Source: Oscillospiraceae bacterium
GTDB taxonomy: Bacteria > Bacillota > Clostridia > Oscillospirales > Oscillospiraceae
Direction of reading: 5' to 3'
Length of the DNA stretch: 32,240 nucleotides
Assembly: GCA_009784725.1 (NCBI GenBank)
Contig: WQXS01000024.1
Location: forward strand, 1 to 32,240
The notes under the pieces are model-generated. The model did not search any database, was not told where the DNA came from, and saw only the letters and a program-made list of their open reading frames with translations. Below are positions 4,789 through 27,080 of the stretch, one piece after another. The number at the start of each line of letters is the position of its first letter. Positions within the stretch are counted from its first letter, which is position 1. Both the position numbers and the translations under genes were made by a program.

Positions 4789-7074
4789 TTATCTTTTTGC
4801 GAATTCGAATTCGTCCATGATTTCTTTTGGGATGCCTTTGCCGTTTTGCTGGAGTTTTTTGATGATGAGGTTTAGGCGTTGGGCGCGTTTTTGGCGTCTT
4901 GCACCATAGCGTGTCAGGGCTTCGTTGTAGCGCATGTTTTTCTTGAGCTGTTCTCTGATGTCCGCATTAAACGGGCAAAAAGTCATTAGGATACCAAGTG
5001 CGATACTGTTAAGCCGTGCCATACCTTTTGATTCGTTTTGGATCCACATGACATAGTTGTTGACAAATACTGTCTTATAGTTATTTCTTGCTGCTCCGAG
5101 TTCATTTCTTATTTCGGTCATCGTCTGCATTGCAATGCTGCGGTTATTCATATAAAACTGCAGGTAATCGCAGAAATAACTTGTAAGTGACGGGTCGGTC
5201 AGGTCGTTCCAGCGGGAGCCCTGGACACGTCTGCACATTTCCCAGCGGAAATCACCGCAAAGGCGGGTAACGATGGTACGAAACTCACCTTCAAGGAATA
5301 TAGGCATGAAAATACGGGCAGGTGTGGTACGGAGCCTGCCTTCAATCTCCTGCCACATGGAGCCGCGAAGACCAACATTCGGCATGAGGATAAAGTTAGG
5401 AACGATTTCAACACTTATTGTTTCGTCGCTAATTCCGACCTTTTGATTTGAGTAACGTGTTTCACGGTAAAATGCCGAAAAATCTATCTCACGGATTTCA
5501 TTTATTACTTCCTTTAATTTATCGGCAGTTATAAGAGTGGTTTCCGGGTCACGCAGCAGATTGTGGCTTGAGAAAACAGGGCAAAATCTTGACGGATTGC
5601 CGAATGTAACCCTGTTGACAACCGGGAAGCAGTTTTCCATTTCATATTTAAGATGCTCGTTTCTGTCAGCAAGCAGGCGGGCTTCTTCTTTGGCATCTAT
5701 TTGCTTTTGGTTCTTTAAGTCCCGGCAGTACGCCGTAAAGTCCATGTCAAACTCACTGAGACTCGGGTCTCTTTTGCCTTCATATATTGACCTGAGCCAC
5801 TCGGCAACTGTAAATATTCCGTTTTCCGGGTCGCCTTTATATGTATCTGCGATGGAGTACAGGAAGTTTGCATGCTCATATCCGGCAAGTGTCGGGTCAA
5901 CATATCCGAAGTTGAGGAACATTTTTATAATAGTCGGCGGTGAGTCATCTTCAAGTGTTTTAAGAAATACCGGGGTGTAAACCTGATAAAACAGCTTGGT
6001 CAAATCTCTGCGTAAATCTCTTGCATCATCCTCTGAGCTGTTCCTGTCGGAAAGCTCTGTATATTCGTTAACACAACGTATAAAAGCAGAGGATATTTCA
6101 TCATCACAACCCGAATATTCCAAGATTGTTGTAAGCGAAGTGAGCAGGTTCTGATTTACGCCCTGCTCGGCAACCGGAGAGGCTTCGGTCATCTCCATGC
6201 CGTCTTGAGCTTCGCGTTTTGTCTCGAGTGTATCCCAATAAGTATCCAAACGTTTTTGATAATAATCCGAATCGATTCCCGCCATACCCGATAATGCTTC
6301 GGTCAGCGGAGCCATCAGTGACTCTATTGCAAAATCTGCTCCGGTAATCTTTAAAGAACTCAGATGCAGCTCACTGATAAGTGAAAACAGGTCATATCCG
6401 CCCTCATGCAGAAGAAGTGCAGAAATGCCTTCCAAATACTCATGATAGGTTTCACATGCAAGTAAAACCTGCCTGACGTCTTCAAGGCTTTTGCGTATAA
6501 ATCCTATCTCAACGCCTGTATTTCCATGGAAAAACTTTTTATGAGTTGCAGGGTCCAGGTCGTTGATTTCCGTATAATAGCTGTGAACCCAATCCTCGAC
6601 GGGGTCATTTCCTGAAAACTTAGTAATATCCTCGAGTCCCGGGAGCTTTTTCGGTGCGGATGCATATGTTTTGCTTAAACGGCTGTATTCCTCATAAAGC
6701 TCGTTAATCATATCAAAAGCACTATCGGCATCATGCTTAAGACGTGCTTTATATTGAAGCAGCTCTGCCAGCTGACGGCAGATTGAGCTTATCATCATAT
6801 ATGCTATATCGGCATTCGACTGCATAAGGTTATCCAGAGAATCCAAACCTTCGCATGGGTATTGGTATAATGTGCCGTTGGATATGGCATTATATGTATG
6901 GGTGTGAGCATCCGATGCAACGTCGCATAACCCGAGCATATCCATCTTTCCGAAAATGAAAGTATGTCCGCCGAAAGAACCTTCAACCTCACCCTCACCA
7001 ATGAGAGAAATATGCTTGAGCGGCTCTCCTTTTGTATAAATTACCGCACCCTCTTTAAACTGTGTTGCTGCCAT
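4789..7074 (-). CDS. large protein with cyclic-nucleotide-binding-like N-terminal domain, function unknown
   Basis: A 761-residue, apparently cytoplasmic protein without signal peptide or membrane spans. Residues about 1-105 read like a cNMP-binding/Crp-type beta-barrel (FKEGAVIYTKGEPLKHISLIGEGEVEGSF), followed by a long helix (about 105-145) like the Crp dimerisation helix. The phosphate-binding cassette seems degenerate: the usual FGE...R(S/T)A pattern is replaced by LGLCDVASDAHTHTYNA, so cyclic nucleotide binding is doubtful. No helix-turn-helix follows. The remaining 600 or so residues are mostly helical, acidic in the middle and basic at the C-terminus (ARRQKRAQRLNLIIKKL), and I do not recognise them. 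The ATG at 7074 follows a GGGGGT ribosome binding site and has its own promoter (7108-7136). It is a single-gene unit between divergent and convergent neighbours. Which process it regulates or serves cannot be said. Confidence 0.75.
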   Translation of the reverse strand: MAATQFKEGAVIYTKGEPLKHISLIGEGEVEGSFGGHTFIFGKMDMLGLCDVASDAHTHTYNAISNGTLYQYPCEGLDSLDNLMQSNADIAYMMISSICRQLAELLQYKARLKHDADSAFDMINELYEEYSRLSKTYASAPKKLPGLEDITKFSGNDPVEDWVHSYYTEINDLDPATHKKFFHGNTGVEIGFIRKSLEDVRQVLLACETYHEYLEGISALLLHEGGYDLFSLISELHLSSLKITGADFAIESLMAPLTEALSGMAGIDSDYYQKRLDTYWDTLETKREAQDGMEMTEASPVAEQGVNQNLLTSLTTILEYSGCDDEISSAFIRCVNEYTELSDRNSSEDDARDLRRDLTKLFYQVYTPVFLKTLEDDSPPTIIKMFLNFGYVDPTLAGYEHANFLYSIADTYKGDPENGIFTVAEWLRSIYEGKRDPSLSEFDMDFTAYCRDLKNQKQIDAKEEARLLADRNEHLKYEMENCFPVVNRVTFGNPSRFCPVFSSHNLLRDPETTLITADKLKEVINEIREIDFSAFYRETRYSNQKVGISDETISVEIVPNFILMPNVGLRGSMWQEIEGRLRTTPARIFMPIFLEGEFRTIVTRLCGDFRWEMCRRVQGSRWNDLTDPSLTSYFCDYLQFYMNNRSIAMQTMTEIRNELGAARNNYKTVFVNNYVMWIQNESKGMARLNSIALGILMTFCPFNADIREQLKKNMRYNEALTRYGARRQKRAQRLNLIIKKLQQNGKGIPKEIMDEFEFAKR

Positions 7075-15323: not shown

Positions 15324-16616
15324 ATGAATAATAAAGTAATAAGAATTACAATAATTGTTTTATCCGCACTTCTTGCACTTTTGGTTCTTGCGGTTATTAT
15401 AGTATACAACCAAAGAGCGGCAGAGCCTGATTCAGATACGGATTATGACAGCGTTGAAGAAACTCCCGGGTTACCGTTGAATGAAATCGAAGTAGCAAGC
15501 ATAAGGGTGGTTCTTGAAAGCTACGAAATTTACAGAGGCACCAGATTCATGCCCGAAGTAATTATACTACCCGATAATGCTACTGACAAGGATTTTACAC
15601 TTCATTCGGATAATGAACGTGTTGTGCGTCAACAGGGGAATAATTGGGTTGCAGTTGAGGTAGGTACGGCAAATCTTATTGCCACAGCTTCAAACGGCAT
15701 CACAGGTATGGCGGTTGTTGTAGTAATAGCACCCGAAGCGGAATTTATGTCCTTTCAAGAGGAGGAAGTGACACTTGATATAGGTGAGGTTTTTGAGCTC
15801 ATTCCGACATTTATTCCGAGAGATGCAGGACTCGGCGGGGTTGTAGTATATACATCGGTAAATGAGCGGGTTGCGACCGTTACAAGTGACGGTAAAATCA
15901 GCGCAGTCGGTCCGGGGACAACGACAATAAGAGGCACTGTCGGAGATGTCAGTGCGGAAATCAAAGTTACAGTAGAAATTCAAATAAGAAGCATTATTAT
16001 AACTATGAACCGCAGAGTATTCGCTATCGGTGAACGTGCAGAGTTTTCAATACAGGTTGAACCTGAGAATGCCACAAATTCAGGAGTATCCGTAAGCTTC
16101 AGCGGTGCTGCGGTCACATCAACGGGAGTAAATTCATTTCGCTGTGACGAAGCAGGGGAGGTAACTGTAACATTTACCTCCGACAGCAACAGCTCGATCA
16201 GCCGGAGTATGGATATTATTGTTCACGACCTTGCCGTTCTTGCCGACGAGGTTTTCAGGCTGACGAATATTGAAAGAGCAAATTCAGACCTTACACCTGT
16301 CGGAAGAATTGCACTGCTGACACAGGTTGCGCAGTTACGAGTGCGTGAGATATCCGAACCTAATCAGTTTTCACACACAAGACCGGATGGCAGAGCATTC
16401 CAAACAGCTTTTAACGATATCGGTCTGCAATATACCTATGCCGGAGAAAATTTAGCCGCCGGACAGGAAAGCCCGGCGGAAGCGGTCAGAGCATGGATGG
16501 AATCAACAACGGGACACCGTGAAACCATATTGGACAGTGATTTCGGGAACCTTGGAGTTGCAGTAACCATTGACGGTGACGGAAGACTCTATTGGGTACA
16601 GATATTTATGAACTGA
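15324..16616 (+). CDS. membrane-anchored Ig-like (BIG2) and CAP/SCP domain surface protein
   Basis: A 430-residue extracytoplasmic protein. Residues 6-29 form one hydrophobic segment without an evident lipobox or cleavage motif, so it is probably an N-terminal anchor, followed by an acidic linker. Two or three bacterial Ig-like repeats follow (about 55-300), with BIG2 features such as ATVTSDGKISAVGPGTTTIRGTVGD. The C-terminus (about 305-430) is a CAP/YkwD-type domain: FSHTRPDGRAFQTAF, YAGENLAAG, AVRAWMESTTGHRETILDSDFGNLGVAV and YWVQIF. CAP domains of this kind are common on Clostridia surfaces and spore coats, but their activity is unsettled. The start lacks a ribosome binding site, which fits the leaderless promoter. 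Expression and partners are unknown. Confidence 0.88.
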   Translation: MNNKVIRITIIVLSALLALLVLAVIIVYNQRAAEPDSDTDYDSVEETPGLPLNEIEVASIRVVLESYEIYRGTRFMPEVIILPDNATDKDFTLHSDNERVVRQQGNNWVAVEVGTANLIATASNGITGMAVVVVIAPEAEFMSFQEEEVTLDIGEVFELIPTFIPRDAGLGGVVVYTSVNERVATVTSDGKISAVGPGTTTIRGTVGDVSAEIKVTVEIQIRSIIITMNRRVFAIGERAEFSIQVEPENATNSGVSVSFSGAAVTSTGVNSFRCDEAGEVTVTFTSDSNSSISRSMDIIVHDLAVLADEVFRLTNIERANSDLTPVGRIALLTQVAQLRVREISEPNQFSHTRPDGRAFQTAFNDIGLQYTYAGENLAAGQESPAEAVRAWMESTTGHRETILDSDFGNLGVAVTIDGDGRLYWVQIFMN

Positions 16617-16705: not shown

Positions 16706-18934
16706 TCAGCCTCTGGAAAGCCCTTGCTTCTTCTTTTCAATTTTTTCTTCATAAAGCAGGCTGTCAGCGCTAAGCATCGCCGCTTCAAATGATTCCTTTG
16801 TTGCGGCTTCAAGTATTACGCTGCCGATGCTGCTTTGAATATTATACGGATGGAGTTTTCTGTTGTTATACTCGGTAAGCTTGTCGCGGATACGGTTAAC
16901 TAATTGTTTGCCGTCTTTTTCTGATTTTATCGATGAGAATACAACAAACTCATCTCCGCCCATTCTTCCGATAATATCTTCTTCCCGCAGCGTTTCTTTA
17001 AGTATTTCAGAAAAAGCCGATATTGCAATGTCGCCTTCGTTATGGCCGTGAGTATCATTTATATATTTGAGCCCGTCCATATCCATAAACATAATAAACG
17101 GCATTCTTTCAATATCTCTGTTTAAGTGAGGCAGTCTTGAATAAGCAAACTGGAAAAACCCTCTTCTGTTGAGCAATCCCGAAAGCTCATCCGTTATTGA
17201 CAGGGTTTGGATTTTTGTAAGCAGCTCTGCACCTTTTATTGCAGTTGAAATGCTCAGGCGCAGGCTTTCATATGTTTCAACCGGAATTTGCGAATCGTAG
17301 GGTAGCAGCATAACTCCGACCTCATCATCGCGGAAAAATAATGGAATAAAGAAAAGTGTCCTGCGTTCACGCTCAAAATCAAACCCGTCGATTGTGGAAA
17401 AGTCGGAAAAGAGAATAGGATTCCAGCTGTTGTGCTGCATTTTGAATTTTCTGTCACCGTCAAACCCGATTAATGTATCGATTGTTCTGTTTGCATTAGG
17501 TGCTCCGCTCTTAAAAGGTGTGCTGTATAAACCTATCAGCATTGTATTTAATGAAATTGATGGGAGAGATTTACTAAGTTCATCAGCCAGAGCTTCTATA
17601 TCAAAAGCAATTGTTAATGCACTTGTAGCTCTTCTCAAATGCACACGGGCATCGCTGAGATGAAATTCGCTTATTTTATCTTCTTTAATCCTGATGTCAT
17701 ATACAAGAGAAGTAGAATAAAACAACGTAGAAAGGACTGAGTGCAGGTTATCGACTTCATCAGAGTGGCTTTCAACGCTTGTTGAAAGAAGATTTAATAC
17801 TTCATACCATACAGTAAAATCATGTGAGTAATGACTGTATTTTATTAGGATTTCATCAAGAGAATGCAGAAAAGAGTCCCTATGAAACGGTTTTGCTGTT
17901 AATTTACCGTTTAAATTTGTAATCCATCTTGCAACTCTATCCTCCGAAATAATCCCTTCGAAAAGAGGTGTGATATTACGGAGAGCAAAGGAAAATAATG
18001 TATCCTCGGCGGCAGGAGCATCTTCCGGCTTAAAGCTTGATTTGGAAAATTCCTTCTCAAAGCATCCGCATGACTGCCTTGGCACAAAAACGGGTGTTAT
18101 ATATTCGATATCGTCGAATTTTTCATTATTAATTTTACGGCACAGCATCTGTGCGCTGGCAAAGCCTATTTCATAAAAACCCTGGCGTACGGTGCTTATT
18201 GACGGAATGAAGGTTGCTGAAAATCTATCATCATCAAAGCCTGTTACGGCAATATCTGTAGGAACAACAATACTCCTGCTCTTCAGTTCGTTTAATACCC
18301 CTATTGCGCTTTCATCATCACATGCAGCAATTGCATCAACAGTTATTTTACGGTTATCAAGAATTTCAACCACAGCCTCGCGGCCGCTTTCGCTTGTAAA
18401 ATACCCGGGTAAAATGTAATTATCATCAAGCGGTATCCCGTTAGCTTTTAATGCTCTTTTATATCCCTCAAGGCGGTCTTCTGCTTCGGGATGACCGTCC
18501 GGACCTTTTACAAATGCAATCTTCTTTTTCCCGTGCACTTTGATTAAATGGTCGACAGCGCTGTATATTCCGTCTATATTATCAACCAGCACAGACGGAA
18601 GCCCCGGCATGGAATAAGATACAGAAACAACCGGAATATGCTTTGGAATCATATCGGCATAATCTTTGAAATTGTTTATTCCTATGTGCTGTGCGAGAAA
18701 ACCGGCAAAGAGAATTACACCATCGAGTGATTTGCTGTTAACTATTGTTTCAAAGCATGTCTCAAGATGCGAAGCAAAATCATAATCATCTGTCTGGTAA
18801 GTGCCGAAATATGCAGTAAGATGGATATCATTTTGTTTTGCATAGCCTGCAATGCCTGTCCATATTTCATGCAGACATGTGTTGTCTATTGTGGAAAAGA
18901 CTACGGCAAAATGAAGTTTTTTGTTCTTTTTCAT
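16706..18934 (-). CDS. LacI-like sensor / GAF-like / GGDEF diguanylate cyclase, paralogue A
   Basis: A 742-residue cytoplasmic protein predicted to make c-di-GMP from two GTP in response to a bound ligand. Residues about 6-285 are a LacI/PurR effector-binding core (VDNIDGIYSAVDHLI, FVKGPDGHPEAEDRLEGYKRAL, AACDDESAIGVLNEL, VTGFDDDRFS). It begins directly at LHFAVVF with no helix-turn-helix, so it is not a repressor. RQSCGC (Cys289, Cys291) closes that domain. A helical stretch and a GAF-like fold (about 440-570) precede the GGDEF domain (579-735). The GGDEF domain has FMDMDGLKYIND, catalytic GGDEF at 659-663 and an inhibitory RxxD site at 650-653, so feedback-inhibited activity is expected. 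The ATG at 18934 has no good Shine-Dalgarno. It lies 70 nt behind paralogue B with no promoter seen, so the two are probably cotranscribed. The ligand is unknown; a sugar is the family default. Confidence 0.88.
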   Translation of the reverse strand: MKKNKKLHFAVVFSTIDNTCLHEIWTGIAGYAKQNDIHLTAYFGTYQTDDYDFASHLETCFETIVNSKSLDGVILFAGFLAQHIGINNFKDYADMIPKHIPVVSVSYSMPGLPSVLVDNIDGIYSAVDHLIKVHGKKKIAFVKGPDGHPEAEDRLEGYKRALKANGIPLDDNYILPGYFTSESGREAVVEILDNRKITVDAIAACDDESAIGVLNELKSRSIVVPTDIAVTGFDDDRFSATFIPSISTVRQGFYEIGFASAQMLCRKINNEKFDDIEYITPVFVPRQSCGCFEKEFSKSSFKPEDAPAAEDTLFSFALRNITPLFEGIISEDRVARWITNLNGKLTAKPFHRDSFLHSLDEILIKYSHYSHDFTVWYEVLNLLSTSVESHSDEVDNLHSVLSTLFYSTSLVYDIRIKEDKISEFHLSDARVHLRRATSALTIAFDIEALADELSKSLPSISLNTMLIGLYSTPFKSGAPNANRTIDTLIGFDGDRKFKMQHNSWNPILFSDFSTIDGFDFERERRTLFFIPLFFRDDEVGVMLLPYDSQIPVETYESLRLSISTAIKGAELLTKIQTLSITDELSGLLNRRGFFQFAYSRLPHLNRDIERMPFIMFMDMDGLKYINDTHGHNEGDIAISAFSEILKETLREEDIIGRMGGDEFVVFSSIKSEKDGKQLVNRIRDKLTEYNNRKLHPYNIQSSIGSVILEAATKESFEAAMLSADSLLYEEKIEKKKQGLSRG

Positions 18935-19004
18935 ACAGATATTTTCGTTTCTATAAGAATTTTATCCCGGGCTGTCTTTGCTCTGAACTGTATCGGTGTT
19001 TTAA

Positions 19005-21233
19005 CTATTGCCTTGAAAGTCCGCTTTTCTTTTTAGTCATTTTTTCATCGTATAAAAGACTGTCGGCACTCAGCATTGCTTCTTCAAAGCATATTTTTGT
19101 TGCAAATTCAAGAATTATACTTCCGATGCTGCCTTGAACGCTGTAAGGATGCAAGTTTTTGCTGTTATATAGCTTAAGCTTGTCGCGGATTCTTTCTACC
19201 AGCTGATTGCCGTCCTTTACGGACTTGACCGATGATAATACAACAAACTCATCTCCGCCGATTCTGCCGATAATATCTTCTTCACGGAGTGTATCTTTTA
19301 AAATCTCTGAAAATGCAGAAATTGCTTTATCTCCTTCGTTGTGACCGTATGTATCATTTATATATTTTAAGCCATCCATATCCATAAACATCAAAAACGG
19401 CATTCTTTCGGTATCTCTTTGCAGATGGGACAGTCTTGAATATGCAAACTGGAAAAAGCCTCTTCTGTTAAGCAATCCCGAAAGCTCGTCTGTTATTGAC
19501 AGGGTCTGGATTGTTGTTAAAAGCTCGGCGCCTTTTACTGCAGTGGAAATACTGATACGCAGGCTTTCGTATGTTTCTATCGGGAGATGCGGCTGGTATG
19601 GGAGCAGCATAACACCAAGCTCTTCGTCCTTAAAAAATAAAGGAATAAAAAACAATGAACGCCGTTCACGGTCAAAATCAAATCTGTCTATTGTGGAATA
19701 ATCGGAAAACAATATCTGATTCCAACTGTTATGACTCATGTTAAATTTTCTTTTTCCGTCAAAACCGATAAGTGTGTCAATAACCCGGCTCTCTTTTGGG
19801 GAGTTACTTTTTACGGGTTTATTGTATAGTCCGACTAAAATTGATTTCAGCGAAATTGCAGGAAGAGTTTTACTGAGCTCCTCTGCAAGTGCTACAATAT
19901 CGAATTGAATAACTATTGCACTTGTTGCTCTTTTTAAATGAACCCTTGCATCCCTCATCAGAAACTCATTGTTTTTCTCTTCTTTTATCCGAATATCATA
20001 TACGAGTGTGGTTGCATAAAATAATGTCGAAAGAACGGCATGCAGGTCGCCAACTTCTTCTGTATGGAACTCCACAGCAGATGTAAGCAGAGATAATGCT
20101 TCATACCAGCAGGTAAATTCCTGGGAGAAATGGCTGTAGTTTATAAGAATTTCATCAAACAGATGTAAAAATTTATCCATATCAAATGACTTTGCCATTG
20201 TCTCGCCGGCAAGGTTTGAAATCCATTTTTGGACAATATCCTTTGGAATGTCGTTTCCGAAAAGGGTTGTGATATTACGCAGTGTATATGATATGAGGGT
20301 ATCGCCTTTAATCGGGGTTTCTTTAGATTTTGATTCTGTTTTTGAAAGGTCTATTTCAAAACAGCCGCATGACTGACGCGGGACAAAAAGAGGTTTTACA
20401 TATGTAATATCTTCGACCTTTTCCCCGTTTATTTTTGCATTCAGTGCTTTTGCGCTTGTATGTCCTATATCAAAGAAATCCTGACGTGCCGTACTTATGG
20501 AGGGCATAAATATTGCTGCCGCTCTGTCATCGTTAAATCCTGTGACCGCAATATCCGACGGGACAATAATGTCTCGCCTCTTGAGCTCGGTAAGGACGCC
20601 GATGGCACCTTCGTCATCGCAGGCGGCAATAGCGTCAACAGATTGTTTACGGGTATCAAGCAGCTCAATAACAGCATCCCGTCCGCTTTCTCGGCTGAAA
20701 TTCCCCGGTAAAATCAAGCTTTCATTAATTGTAATACCGTTTGATTCCAAAGCGCGTTTATATCCTTTTAAACGCTCTTCGGCTTCGGGATGTCCGTCGG
20801 GACCTTTTACAAATGCTATCTTTTTATTGTTGTGTTCACGAATCAAATGATCAACTGCACCAAAAATACCGCTTTCACCGTCAACCAGAATTGACGGTAC
20901 GCCCGGCATTGGAAATGCAACGGAAACAATAGGGATGTTTTTTGGTATGTTACTCAGATATTCATGAAAATCGTCGATACCGACATGCTTTGTAAGAAAT
21001 CCGGTCAGAATAATAACGCCATCTAAAAATTTGCTGTTTCTGATTGTTCCGAAACAGGTTTCAAGATGCATTGCAACATCATCATCGGTTGACTGATAGG
21101 TTCCGAAATATGCGGTAAGATGAATATTATTCATTTCCGCATACTCGACAATACCCTTCCATATTTGCAATGACCCGGCATTATCTATTGTTGTAAATAA
21201 AACACCAAAATGAAGTCTTTTTCTATTTGTCAC
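19005..21233 (-). CDS. LacI-like sensor / GAF-like / GGDEF diguanylate cyclase, paralogue B
   Basis: The closest relative of paralogue A, collinear with it end to end: both have RQSCGC with Cys289/Cys291, RxxD at 650-653 and GGDEF at 659-663. The motif context is GRIGGDEFVVLSS, where the other three have GRM. The frame can be extended to ATG 21257, but GTG 21233 is preferred. It has GGGAG six bases upstream, gives exactly the same length (742 residues) as A, and aligns VTNRKRLHF with MKKNKKLHF. Upstream is a hairpin that can end transcription of paralogue C, followed by a LacI-type palindrome at 21259-21270, so B probably starts its own transcript that continues into A. The sensor domain differs from A at many surface-loop positions, suggesting a different or differently tuned ligand. 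Confidence 0.88.
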   Translation of the reverse strand: MTNRKRLHFGVLFTTIDNAGSLQIWKGIVEYAEMNNIHLTAYFGTYQSTDDDVAMHLETCFGTIRNSKFLDGVIILTGFLTKHVGIDDFHEYLSNIPKNIPIVSVAFPMPGVPSILVDGESGIFGAVDHLIREHNNKKIAFVKGPDGHPEAEERLKGYKRALESNGITINESLILPGNFSRESGRDAVIELLDTRKQSVDAIAACDDEGAIGVLTELKRRDIIVPSDIAVTGFNDDRAAAIFMPSISTARQDFFDIGHTSAKALNAKINGEKVEDITYVKPLFVPRQSCGCFEIDLSKTESKSKETPIKGDTLISYTLRNITTLFGNDIPKDIVQKWISNLAGETMAKSFDMDKFLHLFDEILINYSHFSQEFTCWYEALSLLTSAVEFHTEEVGDLHAVLSTLFYATTLVYDIRIKEEKNNEFLMRDARVHLKRATSAIVIQFDIVALAEELSKTLPAISLKSILVGLYNKPVKSNSPKESRVIDTLIGFDGKRKFNMSHNSWNQILFSDYSTIDRFDFDRERRSLFFIPLFFKDEELGVMLLPYQPHLPIETYESLRISISTAVKGAELLTTIQTLSITDELSGLLNRRGFFQFAYSRLSHLQRDTERMPFLMFMDMDGLKYINDTYGHNEGDKAISAFSEILKDTLREEDIIGRIGGDEFVVLSSVKSVKDGNQLVERIRDKLKLYNSKNLHPYSVQGSIGSIILEFATKICFEEAMLSADSLLYDEKMTKKKSGLSRQ

Positions 21234-21257
21234 CCTTTTCTCCCACAAAAAGAACAT

Positions 21258-21271
21258 AGTGAACGTTCACA
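21258..21271. promoter_or_regulatory. LacI/CcpA-type operator palindrome upstream of paralogue B
   Basis: AGTGAACGTTCACA contains a perfect 12-nt palindrome (21259-21270) with a central CG, the hallmark of LacI-family operators. It matches the CcpA cre consensus TGWNANCGNTNWCA at every fixed position except the first. It lies 25 nt before the GTG start of the cyclase, so a bound repressor would block transcription. Confidence 0.5.
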
Positions 21272-21375
21272 CTTCTAACCTCAGCAGAATATCATAATTA
21301 TGATAAAAAAACAGATTTCAGGTGTGTAATGCTCATGATTTAATGTAAAATGTTAGTTTACCGTTAAACGAAAAT

Positions 21376-21412
21376 GCAGGGAAGCAAGCCTTATTTTCTT
21401 GATAATCCCTGC
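21376..21412 (-). terminator. probable terminator at the end of paralogue C
   Basis: GCAGGGA and TCCCTGC arms enclose an inner CAAG/CTTG stem; on the minus strand the hairpin is followed by ATTTTCG. It overlaps the stop codon region of paralogue C and separates it from paralogue B. Confidence 0.5.
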
Positions 21413-23625
21413 GCTTTTTTTGCCTTTTTTTCCTCGTACATAACACTGTCTGCGCTGAGAACCGCCGATTCAAAGCATTCATTCGATGTTTCCATAAGAA
21501 TAATGCTTCCGATACTTGCAGATACTTTATATGGATGGTGTTTTTTATCATTATAGCTGTCAAGGCTGTCACGGATACGCTTGATTAATGTTACACCGTC
21601 ATCTTTTGTTTTAATCAGTGATAAAACAACAAATTCGTCTCCGCCCATTCTGCCGATTATATCTTCCTCGCGCAGCGTTTCTTTCAGGATTCTTGCAAGT
21701 ACGCTTATTGCGATATCACCCTCCTGATGACCGAAGGTGTCATTAATATACTTCAGGCCGTCCATATCCATGAACATTACAATCGGGATTCCTTCGGAGC
21801 TTCTGCGCATATGCTGGAGCCGTGAATATGAGAATTGGAAAAATCCTCTTCTGTTTAATAATCCCGTTAGCTCATCGGTTATTGATAAAGCCTGTATTTT
21901 TGAAATCAGCTGCGCACCTTTTATTGCCGTGGAAATACTTAAGCGTAATGCTTCGTATTCATCTGTTGTAATTTGTGCGTCATATGGAATAAGCAAAACA
22001 CCCATTTCATCATCAATGAAGAAGAGCGGGAAGTTATAGAAGGTACGCCGGGTTTTATTAAAATCAAACCCGTCAATCGCTCCAAAGTCAGTAAACTGCT
22101 CCGAGCTTTTTTCATCGTATACTTTCTTGATTTTTTTATTTCCATCGAACCCGATGACAGTTTCAATTGCCCTGTCGGCATTTAACGTACCACTTTTTAT
22201 CGGATTTTTATATATCCCGATAAGTGCCGTGTCCAGAAGCAGCTCGGGAAGAATATGGTGCAGCTCGTCAATAAGCAGGTTGATGTCAAATAATGAAACA
22301 AATGAATTTGCCGACCTTCGAAATATAAGGTGTGATTCGTTAATTTCCTTATCAACTCTGATTTTTTCTCTCAGGCAGGTTTCGTTGATAAGTGATGTCG
22401 CCATGATTATTGCAGACAAAATTGAATGAGCGCATTCAACTTCATCATGGTGCATTTCAACACCAAGTGTTAAAGTATTAAGAACCTCATGCCAGACATC
22501 AAAATCCTTTGAGTAATAGCTGTAATTAATGAGCAGCTCGTCAAATAAGACGAGAAAGTCCTTTTTGCTAAACGGAGAATTTGTAATCGCATTGATTATT
22601 TCCGTAGTCCATTCACATATTGAACTTTGCGGGATAATATTATTAAATATATTTGTTAAGCTTTTAATCGTGAATGCGAAAAGAGAATCTATATTTTCCG
22701 TATTGTCATCCATTTGTGAATATATATTGGTAAAATTACCAACGCAGCCACAGGACTGGCGGGCAATAAACACCGGTGATACATAAATGAGTTCTTCAAC
22801 TTTTTTTCCGTTAAGTTTATCAACAAGAAGCTTTGTGCTGACAGCACCTATTTCGAAGAAATCCTGACGTGCAGTACTTATTGACGGAAGAAAGGTTGCC
22901 GATTCTCTGTCATCGTCAAATCCTGTGACGGCAACCTCTGTCGGGACTAAAATGCCTCTTTCGCGAAACTCGCCGAGAACACCGATTGCGGTTTCGTCAT
23001 CACTTGCGACTACCGCATCAACAGTAATCTTGCGTTTGTCATACATTTCCTTGGCAGCGGCTTCTCCGCGCGTGCGGGAAAAATCGCCGGGGAAAACATA
23101 ATTTTTATCGAATTTAATTGCGTTGTCGGCAAGAGCTTTTTTATATCCGTCAAAGCGCTCTTCGGCCTCGGGGTGCCCGTCCGGGCCTTTGATAAAGGCG
23201 ATTTTGCTTTTACCGTGTATTTTAATAAGGTGGTCTACCGCATCGTAAATTCCGCTTGTGTTTTCGGTAACAACAGAGGGTATGCCGGGCATAGTGTAAG
23301 AGATTGATACCATTGGAAGGGTTTTAGGCAATGAGTCGATGTAGTAGTTAATTTCATCAAGACTTATATTATGAGCAAAAAACCCCGTGAACAGAATTAT
23401 TCCGTCCAGAGAGGTGTTGTTTTTTATCGCATTAAAGCAAGTGTCGTAATGAGGTGCATACTCAGTGTGAGTTGTATGAGTGCCGATATATGCAGTTAAA
23501 TGAATGTCATTCGCTTCGGCATAATCACATATACCGTTCCAGACAGCACACTGACAAGCATCAAAAATAGTAGAAATTAAAACCCCGAAATGCAGTCGTT
23601 TCTTATTCTTTTTACTACGACCCAT
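21391..23625 (-). CDS. LacI-like sensor / GAF-like / GGDEF diguanylate cyclase, paralogue C
   Basis: A 744-residue member of the same family, with Cys292/Cys294 in RQSCGC, an REED inhibitory site and GGDEF at 661-665. Its cyclase domain is nearly identical to that of paralogue D and recognisably different from A/B (ELTGLLNRRGFFQFSYSRL against ELSGLLNRRGFFQFAYSRL). Its sensor domain is divergent (GTHTTHTEYAPHYDTCFNAI). The frame opens at TTG 23640, but ATG 23625 follows GGGAGGG with 7-8 nt spacing and is the better start. A textbook promoter lies upstream (23685-23713), so C is transcribed from its own start after guaA. The middle region carries a charged insert (LREKIRVDKEIN) not seen in the same form in A or B. 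Confidence 0.88.
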   Translation of the reverse strand: MGRSKKNKKRLHFGVLISTIFDACQCAVWNGICDYAEANDIHLTAYIGTHTTHTEYAPHYDTCFNAIKNNTSLDGIILFTGFFAHNISLDEINYYIDSLPKTLPMVSISYTMPGIPSVVTENTSGIYDAVDHLIKIHGKSKIAFIKGPDGHPEAEERFDGYKKALADNAIKFDKNYVFPGDFSRTRGEAAAKEMYDKRKITVDAVVASDDETAIGVLGEFRERGILVPTEVAVTGFDDDRESATFLPSISTARQDFFEIGAVSTKLLVDKLNGKKVEELIYVSPVFIARQSCGCVGNFTNIYSQMDDNTENIDSLFAFTIKSLTNIFNNIIPQSSICEWTTEIINAITNSPFSKKDFLVLFDELLINYSYYSKDFDVWHEVLNTLTLGVEMHHDEVECAHSILSAIIMATSLINETCLREKIRVDKEINESHLIFRRSANSFVSLFDINLLIDELHHILPELLLDTALIGIYKNPIKSGTLNADRAIETVIGFDGNKKIKKVYDEKSSEQFTDFGAIDGFDFNKTRRTFYNFPLFFIDDEMGVLLIPYDAQITTDEYEALRLSISTAIKGAQLISKIQALSITDELTGLLNRRGFFQFSYSRLQHMRRSSEGIPIVMFMDMDGLKYINDTFGHQEGDIAISVLARILKETLREEDIIGRMGGDEFVVLSLIKTKDDGVTLIKRIRDSLDSYNDKKHHPYKVSASIGSIILMETSNECFESAVLSADSVMYEEKKAKKAQGLSRK

Positions 23626-23684
23626 CAAGCACCCTCCCAATAATCACATAATACCCACCACGGGCACAATAACACACAAAGCGT

Positions 23685-23713
23685 ATTATACCACATTTTT
23701 TCGCATATTTCAA
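23685..23713 (-). promoter_or_regulatory. sigma-A promoter of paralogue C
   Basis: On the minus strand TTGAAA, exactly 17 nt, TATAAT. A 10-nt palindrome with central CG (AAAACGTTTT, 23748-23757) and a second GAAAACG copy lie 35-50 nt further upstream and could bind an activator. Confidence 0.8.
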
Positions 23714-23764
23714 AGGTTTGATGAATAATTATACCGTTTTCATACTTAAAACGTTTTCGTTTAT

Positions 23765-24745
23765 TTACTCAAACTCTACCGTGCCGGGGGGTTTGTTTGT
23801 TATGTCGTAGACGATGCGGGAGATTTCGGGGACTTCGGAGGTTATGCGGTCGGATATTTTCATTAACAGGTCGTGGGGGAGATGGATGTATTCGGCGGTT
23901 ATGAAGTCTTTGGATTTGACGGCTCGCAGGGCAAGTATGTAGCCGTATGTGCGGGCGTTGTTGAAGATGCCGACTGAGCGCATGTTTGTCAGAGCAGCGA
24001 AATATTGGTCGGGGTTAAAGTCTGAAGCGTCAATCTCTTCGCGGAAAATGGCATCGGCTTCTCTGAGGATATCAAGCTTATTTTTTGTAATTTCACCGAT
24101 ACAGCGTACTGCAAGACCGGGGCCGGGGAACGGTTGACGTTCGGTAAGCACTGCAGGTAAACCAAGATGATGCCCCAAAGCCCGGACATCACATTTCCGC
24201 AGTGCACGTAAAGGCTCGACAAGCCCTTTGAAATCCATGGTATCGGGCAATCCGCCGACATTGTGGTGGCTTTTAATAACCTTCGATTTTTTTGTACCCG
24301 ATTCAATTACATCGGCAAGGATTGTACCTTGTGCAAGATAATAATCACCGGGTAAGTTTTTTATTCCTTCTTCAAATACACGAATGAATTCCTCACCGAT
24401 TACTATACGTTTTTTTTCGGGGTCAGTCACACCGTGCAGCTTCGCAAGAAAACGCTCTTCGGCATTTATGCGTACAAATTTTAAGTCCCGGTTGCAAAAT
24501 GCAGCTTCAACCATATCTCCTTCATCTTTTCGCATTAACCCATGGTCGACAAAAATGCAGTGCAGCTTACCCGGGACAGCTTTTGCAAGAAGAGCCGCAA
24601 CCACTGACGAATCAACGCCGCCCGATAATGCAAGCAGAACATTATCGGAGCCGACATGATTTTGTATAACCTCAATTGCTCTCGATTCAAACAACGCTAT
24701 ATCAGGCTCATCACCTGCTTTAAGCGCATCATACCTGTTACTCAT
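23765..24745 (-). CDS. guaA: GMP synthase, stand-alone ATP-pyrophosphatase (synthetase) subunit
   Basis: Catalyses ATP-dependent amination of XMP to GMP in the cytoplasm. The 326 residues correspond only to the C-terminal two thirds of ordinary GuaA: the PP-loop LSGGVDSS at 40-47, the FVDHGLMRKDE segment, the ESGTKKSKVIKSHHNVGG lid region, QPFPGPGLAVR and the C-terminal dimerisation tail ending KPPGTVEFE. The class I glutamine amidotransferase domain is absent. The protein has its own start (ATG 24745, AAAGGAA upstream) and an intact frame, so this is the two-subunit form known from archaea and some bacteria, not a fragment. Glutaminase must be encoded elsewhere, or ammonia is used. It lies 33 nt behind cyclase paralogue D, very probably on the same mRNA; GMP leads to GTP, the cyclase substrate. 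Confidence 0.92.
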   Translation of the reverse strand: MSNRYDALKAGDEPDIALFESRAIEVIQNHVGSDNVLLALSGGVDSSVVAALLAKAVPGKLHCIFVDHGLMRKDEGDMVEAAFCNRDLKFVRINAEERFLAKLHGVTDPEKKRIVIGEEFIRVFEEGIKNLPGDYYLAQGTILADVIESGTKKSKVIKSHHNVGGLPDTMDFKGLVEPLRALRKCDVRALGHHLGLPAVLTERQPFPGPGLAVRCIGEITKNKLDILREADAIFREEIDASDFNPDQYFAALTNMRSVGIFNNARTYGYILALRAVKSKDFITAEYIHLPHDLLMKISDRITSEVPEISRIVYDITNKPPGTVEFE

Positions 24746-24778
24746 ATATACAGTTAATTCCTTTCAACAAACAGAATA

Positions 24779-27001
24779 TTAACCTCTTGAAATACCCTGT
24801 TTTTTCTTTTCCTTTTTCTCTTCATACATAACGCTGTCAGCGCTGAGAACCGCTGATTCAAAGCATTCGTTTGTCAACTCAACAAGCACAATGCTGCCGA
24901 TGCTTGCCGAAACTTTATACGGATGCAGCTTTTTGTTATTATATTCATCAAGGCTGTCACGGATGCGTTTGATTAGAGTTATTCCGTCATTTTGTGACTT
25001 GATTGAAGATAAAACAACAAACTCATCTCCGCCCATTCTCCCTATAATATCCTCCTCGCGGAGTGTTTCCTTAAGGATTTTCGCAAGAACGCTGATTGCA
25101 ATATCTCCCTCCTGATGGCCGAAAGTATCATTAATGTGCTTTAAACCATCCATATCCATAAACATTACAATCGGAATCCCCTCGGAATTTCTCCTCATAT
25201 GCTGAAGCCTTGAGTAAGAAAACTGGAAAAATCCTCTTCTATTCAGCAGTCCCGTAAGCTCGTCGGTAATTGACAATGCCTGGATTTTTGATAATAAACC
25301 GGCACCCTTTACTGCGATTGAAACATTTGCTCTGAGTGATTCATAAACATCAACATGCACTCTTGAATCATACGGTAAAATCAATATACCCACTTCAATA
25401 TTTTCAAAGAATAACGGAAACAGCATTAATGCGCGCTGCCGGCTGTTAAAATCAAAACCGCCGATTGGTGAATAATCAGAGTATAAAATTGATGTACATT
25501 TATCGTCACTGACATAAAGCTCCTTATCACCGTCAAAGCCGACAACTTCCTCAATAGCCCTAACGGCAACCGGGTCATCGGATGCTATCTGGCTTCGGTA
25601 CAAACCGACCATTGCAAAATCCAACGAAAGCATCGGAAGCGATTTAAGCAATGCGTCGGCAAGCATTTTTATTTCAAACATGGAAACAATGCTGCTTACA
25701 ACTCTTCGCAGATTATTTCTAAAATCATTTAATGCAAAAGTAACATTTTTTTCACTTTTTATTTGAATGTCATAAATAAGAGTAGTTACACGTATTAGTG
25801 TTGATAGAACTGCGCGCGAATTTTCATCGTGTATAAATTTTTCGAACCCTGCCGTCAGAATGTTAATTATTTCATGCCATTTTGAATAATCCTCGGAATA
25901 ACGGCTGTAAGCGATTAATATTCCGTCAAACATACTTAAATAATCATCGCTGATAAACGGTTTTTCCACAGCTTTTTCTATCAGAGCCGAAACCCACCAT
26001 TCTATCTCCCGTTCCGGGATTTCATCTTTGAAAACACTTGCAAATCTGCGGCTTACAAATGAAAGAAGTGTCTCTGAATCTCCGGGTGTCTCATCATCCT
26101 GTTTCTCTTTGTCCTTAAAATCGTTCCCAAGGCAACCGCATGACTGACGCGCAAGAAATACAGGGGATACGTATGTAATTTCATCTACGGAAGAGCCGTT
26201 AATAATTTTATGAAGCTTTTCTATGCTTTCCGTGCCGATTTTGAAAAAGTTCTGTTGTACGGTACTTATCGAAGGGATAAATGTATCCGAACCTCTATCA
26301 TCATCAAAGCCTGTTGCGGCGGCATCCGACGGAATTAATATTCCTCTTAGTTTAAGCTCTCGCATTGCACCCATTGCGGTACCGTCATCACTTGCCGTAA
26401 TTGCATCAAATTCAATACCCCTATTTTCAATAAGCTCAATTATGGCATTGCGTCCGCCGTCCTGGGTAAAATTGCCCTGCAGAAGGTAATTTTCATTAAA
26501 TTCAATATTGTTTTCCAAAAGAGCTTCTTTATATCCTCTAAGGCGTTCTTCCGCCTCAGGATGCCCTTTCGGACCCATGATAAATACAATTTTTCTCTTG
26601 TTGTGTATCTTTATAAGATGATCAACAGCGTGGAAAATTCCGTTTCTGTTGTCGGTTATTACAGAAGGAACTCCTTCCGCAAAAAAGCAAATGGAAACTA
26701 CCGGTATCTTTTTACAAATTTCATTTATTCGTTTAACTAAATTGTCCGTTCCGATATTTGTGGCAATAAATCCGGAATAACAAATTAATCCGTCAAGTGA
26801 GGTGTTATTTTCAATTGCATTAAAACATGTTTCATAATGTGAAATATATTCATAATCAACGGTTTGATATGTACCGACATATACTGTCAGGTTAATATCA
26901 TGCGCTTTTGCAAAGCTGTTAATACCGTCTAAAACAGTGCGTTGACTGGAATCTTCGGGGGTTGCAATCAGAACACCAAAATGAAGCCGTTTATTATTCA
27001 C
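24779..27001 (-). CDS. LacI-like sensor / GAF-like / GGDEF diguanylate cyclase, paralogue D
   Basis: The first gene of the array, 740 residues: Cys288/Cys290 in RQSCGC, the REED inhibitory site and GGDEF at 657-661, with a cyclase domain almost the same as that of C. The sensor has features of its own, such as FIMGPKGHPEAEERLRGYKEAL where the others have FVKGPDGHPEAE or FIKGPDGHPEAE, and a different hinge (VCFFAEGVPSVITDN-like). Longer starts exist (ATG 27052, ATG 27016), but 27052 lies inside a TATAAT box. GTG 27001 has GGAG 9 nt upstream and gives the N-terminus matching the paralogues (VNNKRLHFGVL). The downstream guaA gene is 33 nt away. Together D and guaA form the promoter-proximal transcription unit. 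Confidence 0.87.
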   Translation of the reverse strand: MNNKRLHFGVLIATPEDSSQRTVLDGINSFAKAHDINLTVYVGTYQTVDYEYISHYETCFNAIENNTSLDGLICYSGFIATNIGTDNLVKRINEICKKIPVVSICFFAEGVPSVITDNRNGIFHAVDHLIKIHNKRKIVFIMGPKGHPEAEERLRGYKEALLENNIEFNENYLLQGNFTQDGGRNAIIELIENRGIEFDAITASDDGTAMGAMRELKLRGILIPSDAAATGFDDDRGSDTFIPSISTVQQNFFKIGTESIEKLHKIINGSSVDEITYVSPVFLARQSCGCLGNDFKDKEKQDDETPGDSETLLSFVSRRFASVFKDEIPEREIEWWVSALIEKAVEKPFISDDYLSMFDGILIAYSRYSEDYSKWHEIINILTAGFEKFIHDENSRAVLSTLIRVTTLIYDIQIKSEKNVTFALNDFRNNLRRVVSSIVSMFEIKMLADALLKSLPMLSLDFAMVGLYRSQIASDDPVAVRAIEEVVGFDGDKELYVSDDKCTSILYSDYSPIGGFDFNSRQRALMLFPLFFENIEVGILILPYDSRVHVDVYESLRANVSIAVKGAGLLSKIQALSITDELTGLLNRRGFFQFSYSRLQHMRRNSEGIPIVMFMDMDGLKHINDTFGHQEGDIAISVLAKILKETLREEDIIGRMGGDEFVVLSSIKSQNDGITLIKRIRDSLDEYNNKKLHPYKVSASIGSIVLVELTNECFESAVLSADSVMYEEKKEKKKQGISRG

Positions 27002-27050
27002 GTCACACATCTCCATAAAATCGTTGTTGGAAAATAATCTGTCATTTTGC

Positions 27051-27080
27051 ATTATAACAAAAAAAGTGTAAAAAAAACAA
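27051..27080 (-). promoter_or_regulatory. promoter of paralogue D and guaA
   Basis: Minus strand TTGTTT, 18 nt, TATAAT. The predicted transcript start near 27044 leaves a leader of about 43 nt before GTG 27001 and excludes the ATG at 27052. Confidence 0.5.

Follow-up and report, generated by a model that had tools for sequence, protein, structure and literature searches.

Four LacI-core GGDEF proteins of an Oscillospiraceae bacterium as probable soluble, ligand-sensing diguanylate cyclases

The question raised by this locus is what four neighbouring genes, each coding for a LacI-type effector core joined to a GGDEF domain, could do in a bacterium of the Oscillospiraceae. The genes lie in contig WQXS01000024.1 (assembly GCA_009784725.1), and the whole stretch analysed, positions 1 to 32,240 (32,240 nucleotides, nt), is referred to as the window. 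They probably encode soluble one-component ligand-sensing cyclases, likely with a carbohydrate as ligand, which have a shared output, cyclic di-GMP (c-di-GMP), and diverged sensors. A soluble ligand-sensing cyclase is the best reading because the fold, the conserved pocket of the C-terminal lobe (C-lobe) and the absence of a membrane segment all point to it. The four genes are listed here, the preferred starts being those behind a Shine-Dalgarno-like stretch.

16706..18934, minus strand: copy 1 (W1), 742 amino acids (aa), Peripla_BP_3 and GGDEF; LacI core 1-291, helical module about 313-443, GAF-like domain about 446-545, signalling helix 552-580, GGDEF domain 580-736
19005..21233, minus strand: copy 2 (W2), 742 aa, start GTG 21233; the open reading frame (ORF) reaches 21257 (ATG, 750 aa)
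21391..23625, minus strand: copy 3 (W3), 744 aa, start ATG 23625; the ORF reaches 23640
24779..27001, minus strand: copy 4 (W4), 740 aa, start GTG 27001; the alternative ATG 27052 gives 757 aa

These starts yield 742, 742, 744 and 740 aa, in agreement with the 740-744 residues given in an earlier note on this DNA. A clear ribosome site is not seen at the start of copy 1, the alternative start of copy 4 overlaps a promoter-like stretch, and a promoter-like site (TTGAAA-17-TATAAT, 23713-23685) is present upstream of copy 3. Pfam detects Peripla_BP_3 in all four copies (E 3e-25, 2e-24, 4e-25 and 8e-19 for copies 1-4) as well as GGDEF (PF00990; E 2e-30 to 8e-35), and these matches are long and highly significant, such that chance is excluded as a concern. 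The RQSCGC junction described in the earlier note ends the core in each copy. The core was also said to start at its first strand, lacking a DNA-binding domain, and this is what is found: in all four proteins, even the longest ORF start leaves fewer than 30 residues ahead of the first core strand (in W1 this strand comprises residues 8-12), and therefore the N-terminal helix-turn-helix (HTH) and hinge helix of the LacI/GalR transcription factors are absent from the four copies. The predicted structure, a model of W1, has the two-lobe LacI-type effector fold, such that the proposed check by structure prediction does not refute a periplasmic-binding-type fold. The middle part resembles a GAF fold when searched alone, whereas the Pfam scan of the copies gives no GAF match, and hence the GAF-like assignment stands as a resemblance of fold but not as a Pfam family. 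The GGDEF motif, D618, N626, D627 and D635 are invariant in the 26 rows of alignment A3, as are R650 and D653, and the RxxD inhibitory site (I-site) is located five residues ahead of GGDEF, confirming the motifs previously noticed. No transmembrane (TM) linker is found in a simple hydropathy scan, the highest 19-aa values being 1.26, 1.51, 1.38 and 1.91 for W1-W4. The notion of soluble LacI-core cyclases is supported by these properties, together with the pocket residues.

The pocket was aligned, for 30 close and eight distant sequences, with that of LacI and its ligand-contact positions. LacI residues S193, R197, W220, D247, Q291 and F293 correspond to E150, R154, F179, D207, Q251 and F253 in all 30 close sequences; the D274 position is an aspartate in 29 of them (an asparagine in copy 2), and the S191 position is a histidine in 28. 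The glutamate and the arginine are also present in all eight distant sequences, F179 in seven, Q251 in four and F253 in three. The positions of the N-terminal lobe (N-lobe) are variable, the site of LacI P76 being a glutamine in 28/30, a leucine in copy 1 and a serine in copy 2. The pocket is retained, with differences among the copies, and the check on conserved ligand-contact residues, run here against LacI, has the six positions named first invariant in 30/30.

In the proposed mechanism, the LacI/PurR-type core would capture a small cytoplasmic molecule, which would most likely be a carbohydrate released when glycans are broken down. The closing of this core would be transmitted via the SCGC junction, the helical module, the GAF-like domain and the signalling helix to the GGDEF domain, changing its activity. 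This domain, presumably dimeric, would make c-di-GMP and would be product-inhibited at the RxxD site. The copies would have a common output and diverged sensors, possibly with different ligands. Further c-di-GMP parts are present elsewhere in the host genome (2.77 Mb, 99 contigs, 98.4% complete), in which copy 3 has 23 matches; the full-length ones are these four only, and the remaining matches cover the core alone or the GGDEF part alone.

That the ligand would be a sugar we infer from glycoside hydrolase and phosphorylase genes adjoining the relatives. Of the 26 close GGDEF members counted (the four copies, L027-L046, L084 and L091), 8 are followed within 50 nt by a co-directional ORF, namely GH94 (L027, L028), GH2 (L039), GH5 (L091), Aldedh-like (L041, L044), AA_kinase/GNAT (L043) and guaA (copy 4), as are four of the seven distant members (L049 twice, L054, L055, L057, L058 and L059), namely GH78 (L054), GyrI-like (L049), LMWPc (L055) and a familyless ORF (L059). 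A new observation is that the close downstream gene encodes a glycoside hydrolase or phosphorylase in 5/12 cases, or 4/11 with two similar Treponema loci counted once, in a count that ignores ORFs below 90 aa, was made after the first cases had been seen and has no measured background. At L091 (101-5190), flagellin, cyclase and GH5 cellulase genes lie on one strand, the GH5 gene overlapping the cyclase gene by 4 nt.

When named genomes were scanned with the sensor part as query, 42 loci were obtained, of which 22, spread over 20 genomes, are close (best segment 47-61% identity). By label, 19 of these belong to Bacillota lineages, two to Treponema and one to Chitinivibrionia. In the search for the same architecture suggested earlier, 20 close loci combine the LacI-type core with GGDEF; in the other two (L047, L048) the output is HisKA-HATPase-REC. 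Of the 22 close loci, 20 bear isolate codes that belong, according to PMC7024585, to six termite species, and the host of the other two (Pal332) could not be confirmed. This tight clade, extending over Bacillota, Treponema and Fibrobacterota and mostly of termite-gut origin, is new. The window DNA likely also derives from a termite gut, because a member in the same-genus genome G131 shares its first residues and contig position with L032, from an Embiratermes metagenome-assembled genome (MAG). As the relatives in three phyla are nearly all from termite guts, it is suggested that food sugars within the cell may set a lifestyle signal. Members are rare: at E <= 1e-60, with only the best candidates of a loose first pass scored in some genomes, and in samples of unspecified habitat, they occur in 2/200 sampled genomes of the window's family (its own and G131), 2/295 of the order (its own and G247, of the histidine-kinase type), 2/398 of the phylum (its own and the distant L049 type) and 1/145 of the family of the Treponema genome G001, being the query genome itself. 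In a viral collection, 72 stretches matched a pattern and none encodes a relative. One relative (L097/L098, genome G013, contig C56) is split over two frames of 554 and 220 aa, seemingly because the copy is broken or the sequence contains an error.

The history of the array is best seen with its neighbours in the window.

15324..16616, plus strand: Big_2 and CAP-domain protein, converging on copy 1
23765..24745, minus strand: guaA, 326 aa, consisting of the C-terminal half alone and located between copies 3 and 4

The genes are therefore not four consecutive ones, as had been stated, since the guaA gene parts copies 3 and 4. Within the genome, copy 1 is 68% identical to copy 2, 55% to copy 3 and 53% to copy 4. 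Copies 1 and 2 are sisters in the sensor tree (100/99), and the sensor half of copy 4 groups with L084 of genome G020 (98/93). By the approximately unbiased (AU) test, a four-copy tandem duplication, taken as a single clade of the four, is rejected for the sensor halves (p 0.005) and is compatible with the GGDEF domains (p 0.33). For groups that were defined after seeing the trees, W3 and W4 sensor halves as sisters are borderline (p 0.05), and the GGDEF domain of copy 4 with that of L084 is disfavoured (p 0.028). Copies 3 and 4 are sisters in the GGDEF tree (98/95), and their likeness is 88% in the GGDEF domain as compared with 55% in the core and 39% in the middle part, for which gene conversion of the output, or domain exchange inside the array, would be the best explanation. 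This contrast, between sensor halves that do not form one clade and GGDEF domains that are so alike, is newly described here. Hence, of the proposed expansion to distinguish ligands, the simple local expansion is unsupported, and the N-lobe pocket positions differ between copies; the array looks like a mixed sensor set whose output has been homogenised in part, rather than like a plain tandem expansion.

It could be argued that these cores sense a purine or nucleoside, thereby tying c-di-GMP to nucleotide supply, with guaA as functional partner. The guaA gene begins 33 nt after copy 4, and the guaA-cyclase-CAP neighbourhood recurs in G020, where L084, whose sensor half is the one grouping with copy 4, is a single cyclase between a CAP-domain gene of the Big_2/CAP type and guaA. 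CytR, moreover, is a nucleoside repressor and the best NCBIfam match of the copy 1 core (E 8e-32; 110.6 bits, far below the cut-off of 436). It also weighs against the carbohydrate reading that a glycoside hydrolase or phosphorylase gene stands beside none of the four window genes. However, the guaA linkage is found in one lineage only, glycan enzymes are among the linked genes elsewhere (the 5/12 given above), and the CcpA, RbsR and GalR profiles match as well, such that the purine explanation is considered unlikely. The guaA gene itself is the sole TIGR00884 match in the host genome, where the glutaminase half of GMP synthase has no match over the cut-off (two are weak); this half is present in 39 of 61 sampled family genomes, the host's own being among the 61. 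The window protein, as the ATP-pyrophosphatase half, would be either an ammonia-dependent enzyme or one with a missing partner.

Two further explanations concern the sensing itself. A CcpA-like core that answers a protein partner instead of a specific sugar would fit with the closeness of CcpA, whose sequence is one of the most similar among solved structures (E 2e-28) and which has the top Z (28.4) in the structure comparison; nevertheless, CcpA has a lysine where 30/30 close sequences have R154, and the other C-lobe ligand positions are invariant, which makes this quite improbable. The least probable explanation is that the array is a redundant duplication, the copies having no separate sensing roles: despite the similarity of copies 1 and 2, and that of copies 3 and 4 in the GGDEF domain, the minus-strand ORFs 16706-18934, 19005-21257, 21391-23640 and 24779-27052 have no internal stops, the nonsynonymous rate (dN) is well under the synonymous rate (dS) where dS, which is near saturation, can be computed, and the catalytic and most pocket residues are kept.

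For the putative ligand-sensing cyclases, the junction between core and output provides a further perspective. The core terminates in SCG[CE] in each of the four copies and in 22/22 close loci (as R[QE]SCGC in 22/22), and the motif also ends 12 distant LacI cores (three in L049, and those of L050, L051-L053, L054, L055 and L057-L059); four additional close rows (L084, L091, L099 and L100) had been selected by the motif itself. It is found in 0/13 LacI-type proteins that the searches gave in the length range of repressors (335-407 aa), classed by length and N-terminus and not by Pfam. The outputs of the distant cores include GGDEF, MCP (L051) and PAS-LuxR (L050), and it is a new finding that the SCGC-ended core is also joined to histidine-kinase, chemoreceptor and LuxR outputs. 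The junction may have a part in coupling, in metal binding or in redox chemistry, and may serve as a simple sequence mark of LacI cores rewired to other outputs. In the Anaerolineaceae (Chloroflexi), L051 (5815-8556; similarly L052 and L053) has a LacI core ending in RRSCGC and an MCP signalling domain, the latter identified by Pfam on L051 alone; it is possibly a cytoplasmic chemoreceptor. In the Spirochaetales, L050 (5986-8076) has a core ending in RNSCGC, followed by PAS and a C-terminal LuxR-type HTH. A Bacillota MAG carries a separate LacI-core sensor run (L049, 871-8306), consisting of two cyclases of 771 aa each and of a third protein that is truncated at the contig end.

The distribution over phyla was examined with the sensor tree, in which a 30-row clade (100/99) is far from the four other rows (three of L049, and L051). 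L052, L053, L054, L055, the split L097 and, as duplicates, L105, L110 and L111 were left out, and L050 and L057-L059 were outside the set from the start. A Fibrobacterota protein shares 61% identity with copy 1. Transfer between phyla appears to be favoured because of the patchiness, the shared habitat and the high identity. Tree proof was not obtained, since the AU test does not reject a single Bacillota clade (p 0.16). The tetranucleotide make-up of the Treponema and Fibrobacterota locus contigs agrees with that of their own bins (mean r 0.94, 0.96 and 0.97) as compared with r 0.52-0.78 for sampled Bacillota, binning itself relying on composition. In the Treponema GH94 cluster, a flanking GH94 gene occurs at E <= 1e-150 in 1/98 sampled family genomes, the query's own, and hence an empty site could not be shown.

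We tentatively put forward a wider picture, as a possibility somewhat on the doubtful side. In this picture, a portable cytoplasmic LacI-core sensor, SCGC-ended and in many cases accompanied by helical/GAF modules, spread over Bacillota, Treponema and Fibrobacterota in termite guts, would swap outputs (c-di-GMP, phosphorelay) and would sit in glycan-breakdown operons, such that intracellular oligosaccharide sets c-di-GMP; the window lineage would hold a sensor bank, with cyclases kept alike by gene conversion and sensors differing. Elsewhere in the window, where Rfam at the gathering threshold, in a riboswitch search confined to this stretch, finds two tRNAs only, a 761-aa protein (4789-7074) is encoded between alpha-amylase and GH36 genes, its only match being sub-threshold (cyclic-nucleotide-binding, E 0.002).

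Sugar availability acting on c-di-GMP is known for few receptors, and the sugar entry in the table of the 2022 review PMC8846402, as far as its available part goes, is a phosphotransferase route. If the present reading is true, the LacI-core cyclase would, as a soluble protein, link intracellular sugar directly to c-di-GMP in a lignocellulose-based habitat, and operons such as GH94-cyclase-GH94 point to testable candidate ligands. The window proteins share with the LacI/GalR repressors (CcpA, RbsR, CelR, LacI, PurR) the core fold and the C-lobe ligand residues, and differ from them by the absence of the N-terminal HTH, by the RQSCGC end of the core and by the GGDEF output. The architecture is catalogued, but uncharacterised within the literature searched: no study of a LacI- or Peripla_BP-GGDEF protein was found in the open-access literature beyond PMC8846402, PMC12268683 dealing with other matters than this architecture. 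There, in the part available, Peripla_BP-GGDEF proteins are listed by Pfam architecture among putative sensors of unknown role, the domain being common to LacI regulators and possibly binding sugars; the PBP clan is described as periplasmic and signalling via a TM linker, and its sole studied case is SBP_bac_3 of RmcA (L-arginine). The window proteins resemble the catalogued ones in having a LacI-type periplasmic-binding-like domain in a c-di-GMP protein and, unlike that description of the clan, have no TM segment and include helical and GAF-like modules. With RmcA, as presented there, they have in common a periplasmic-binding fold in a c-di-GMP protein. RmcA differs in belonging to another PBP family and in its membrane topology. 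The Actinoplanes operon amlR-amlE-ACSP50_2473 encodes a LacI-type repressor, a maltase and a GGDEF-EAL protein, and its authors propose, in the part of PMC6828939 available, that maltose use is coupled to c-di-GMP. In linking sugar sensing of the LacI type to a glycoside hydrolase and to a GGDEF protein, this operon is similar to the loci of the relatives; it differs in having a separate DNA-binding repressor and a GGDEF-EAL output, whereas the sensor and the GGDEF domain are here one protein.
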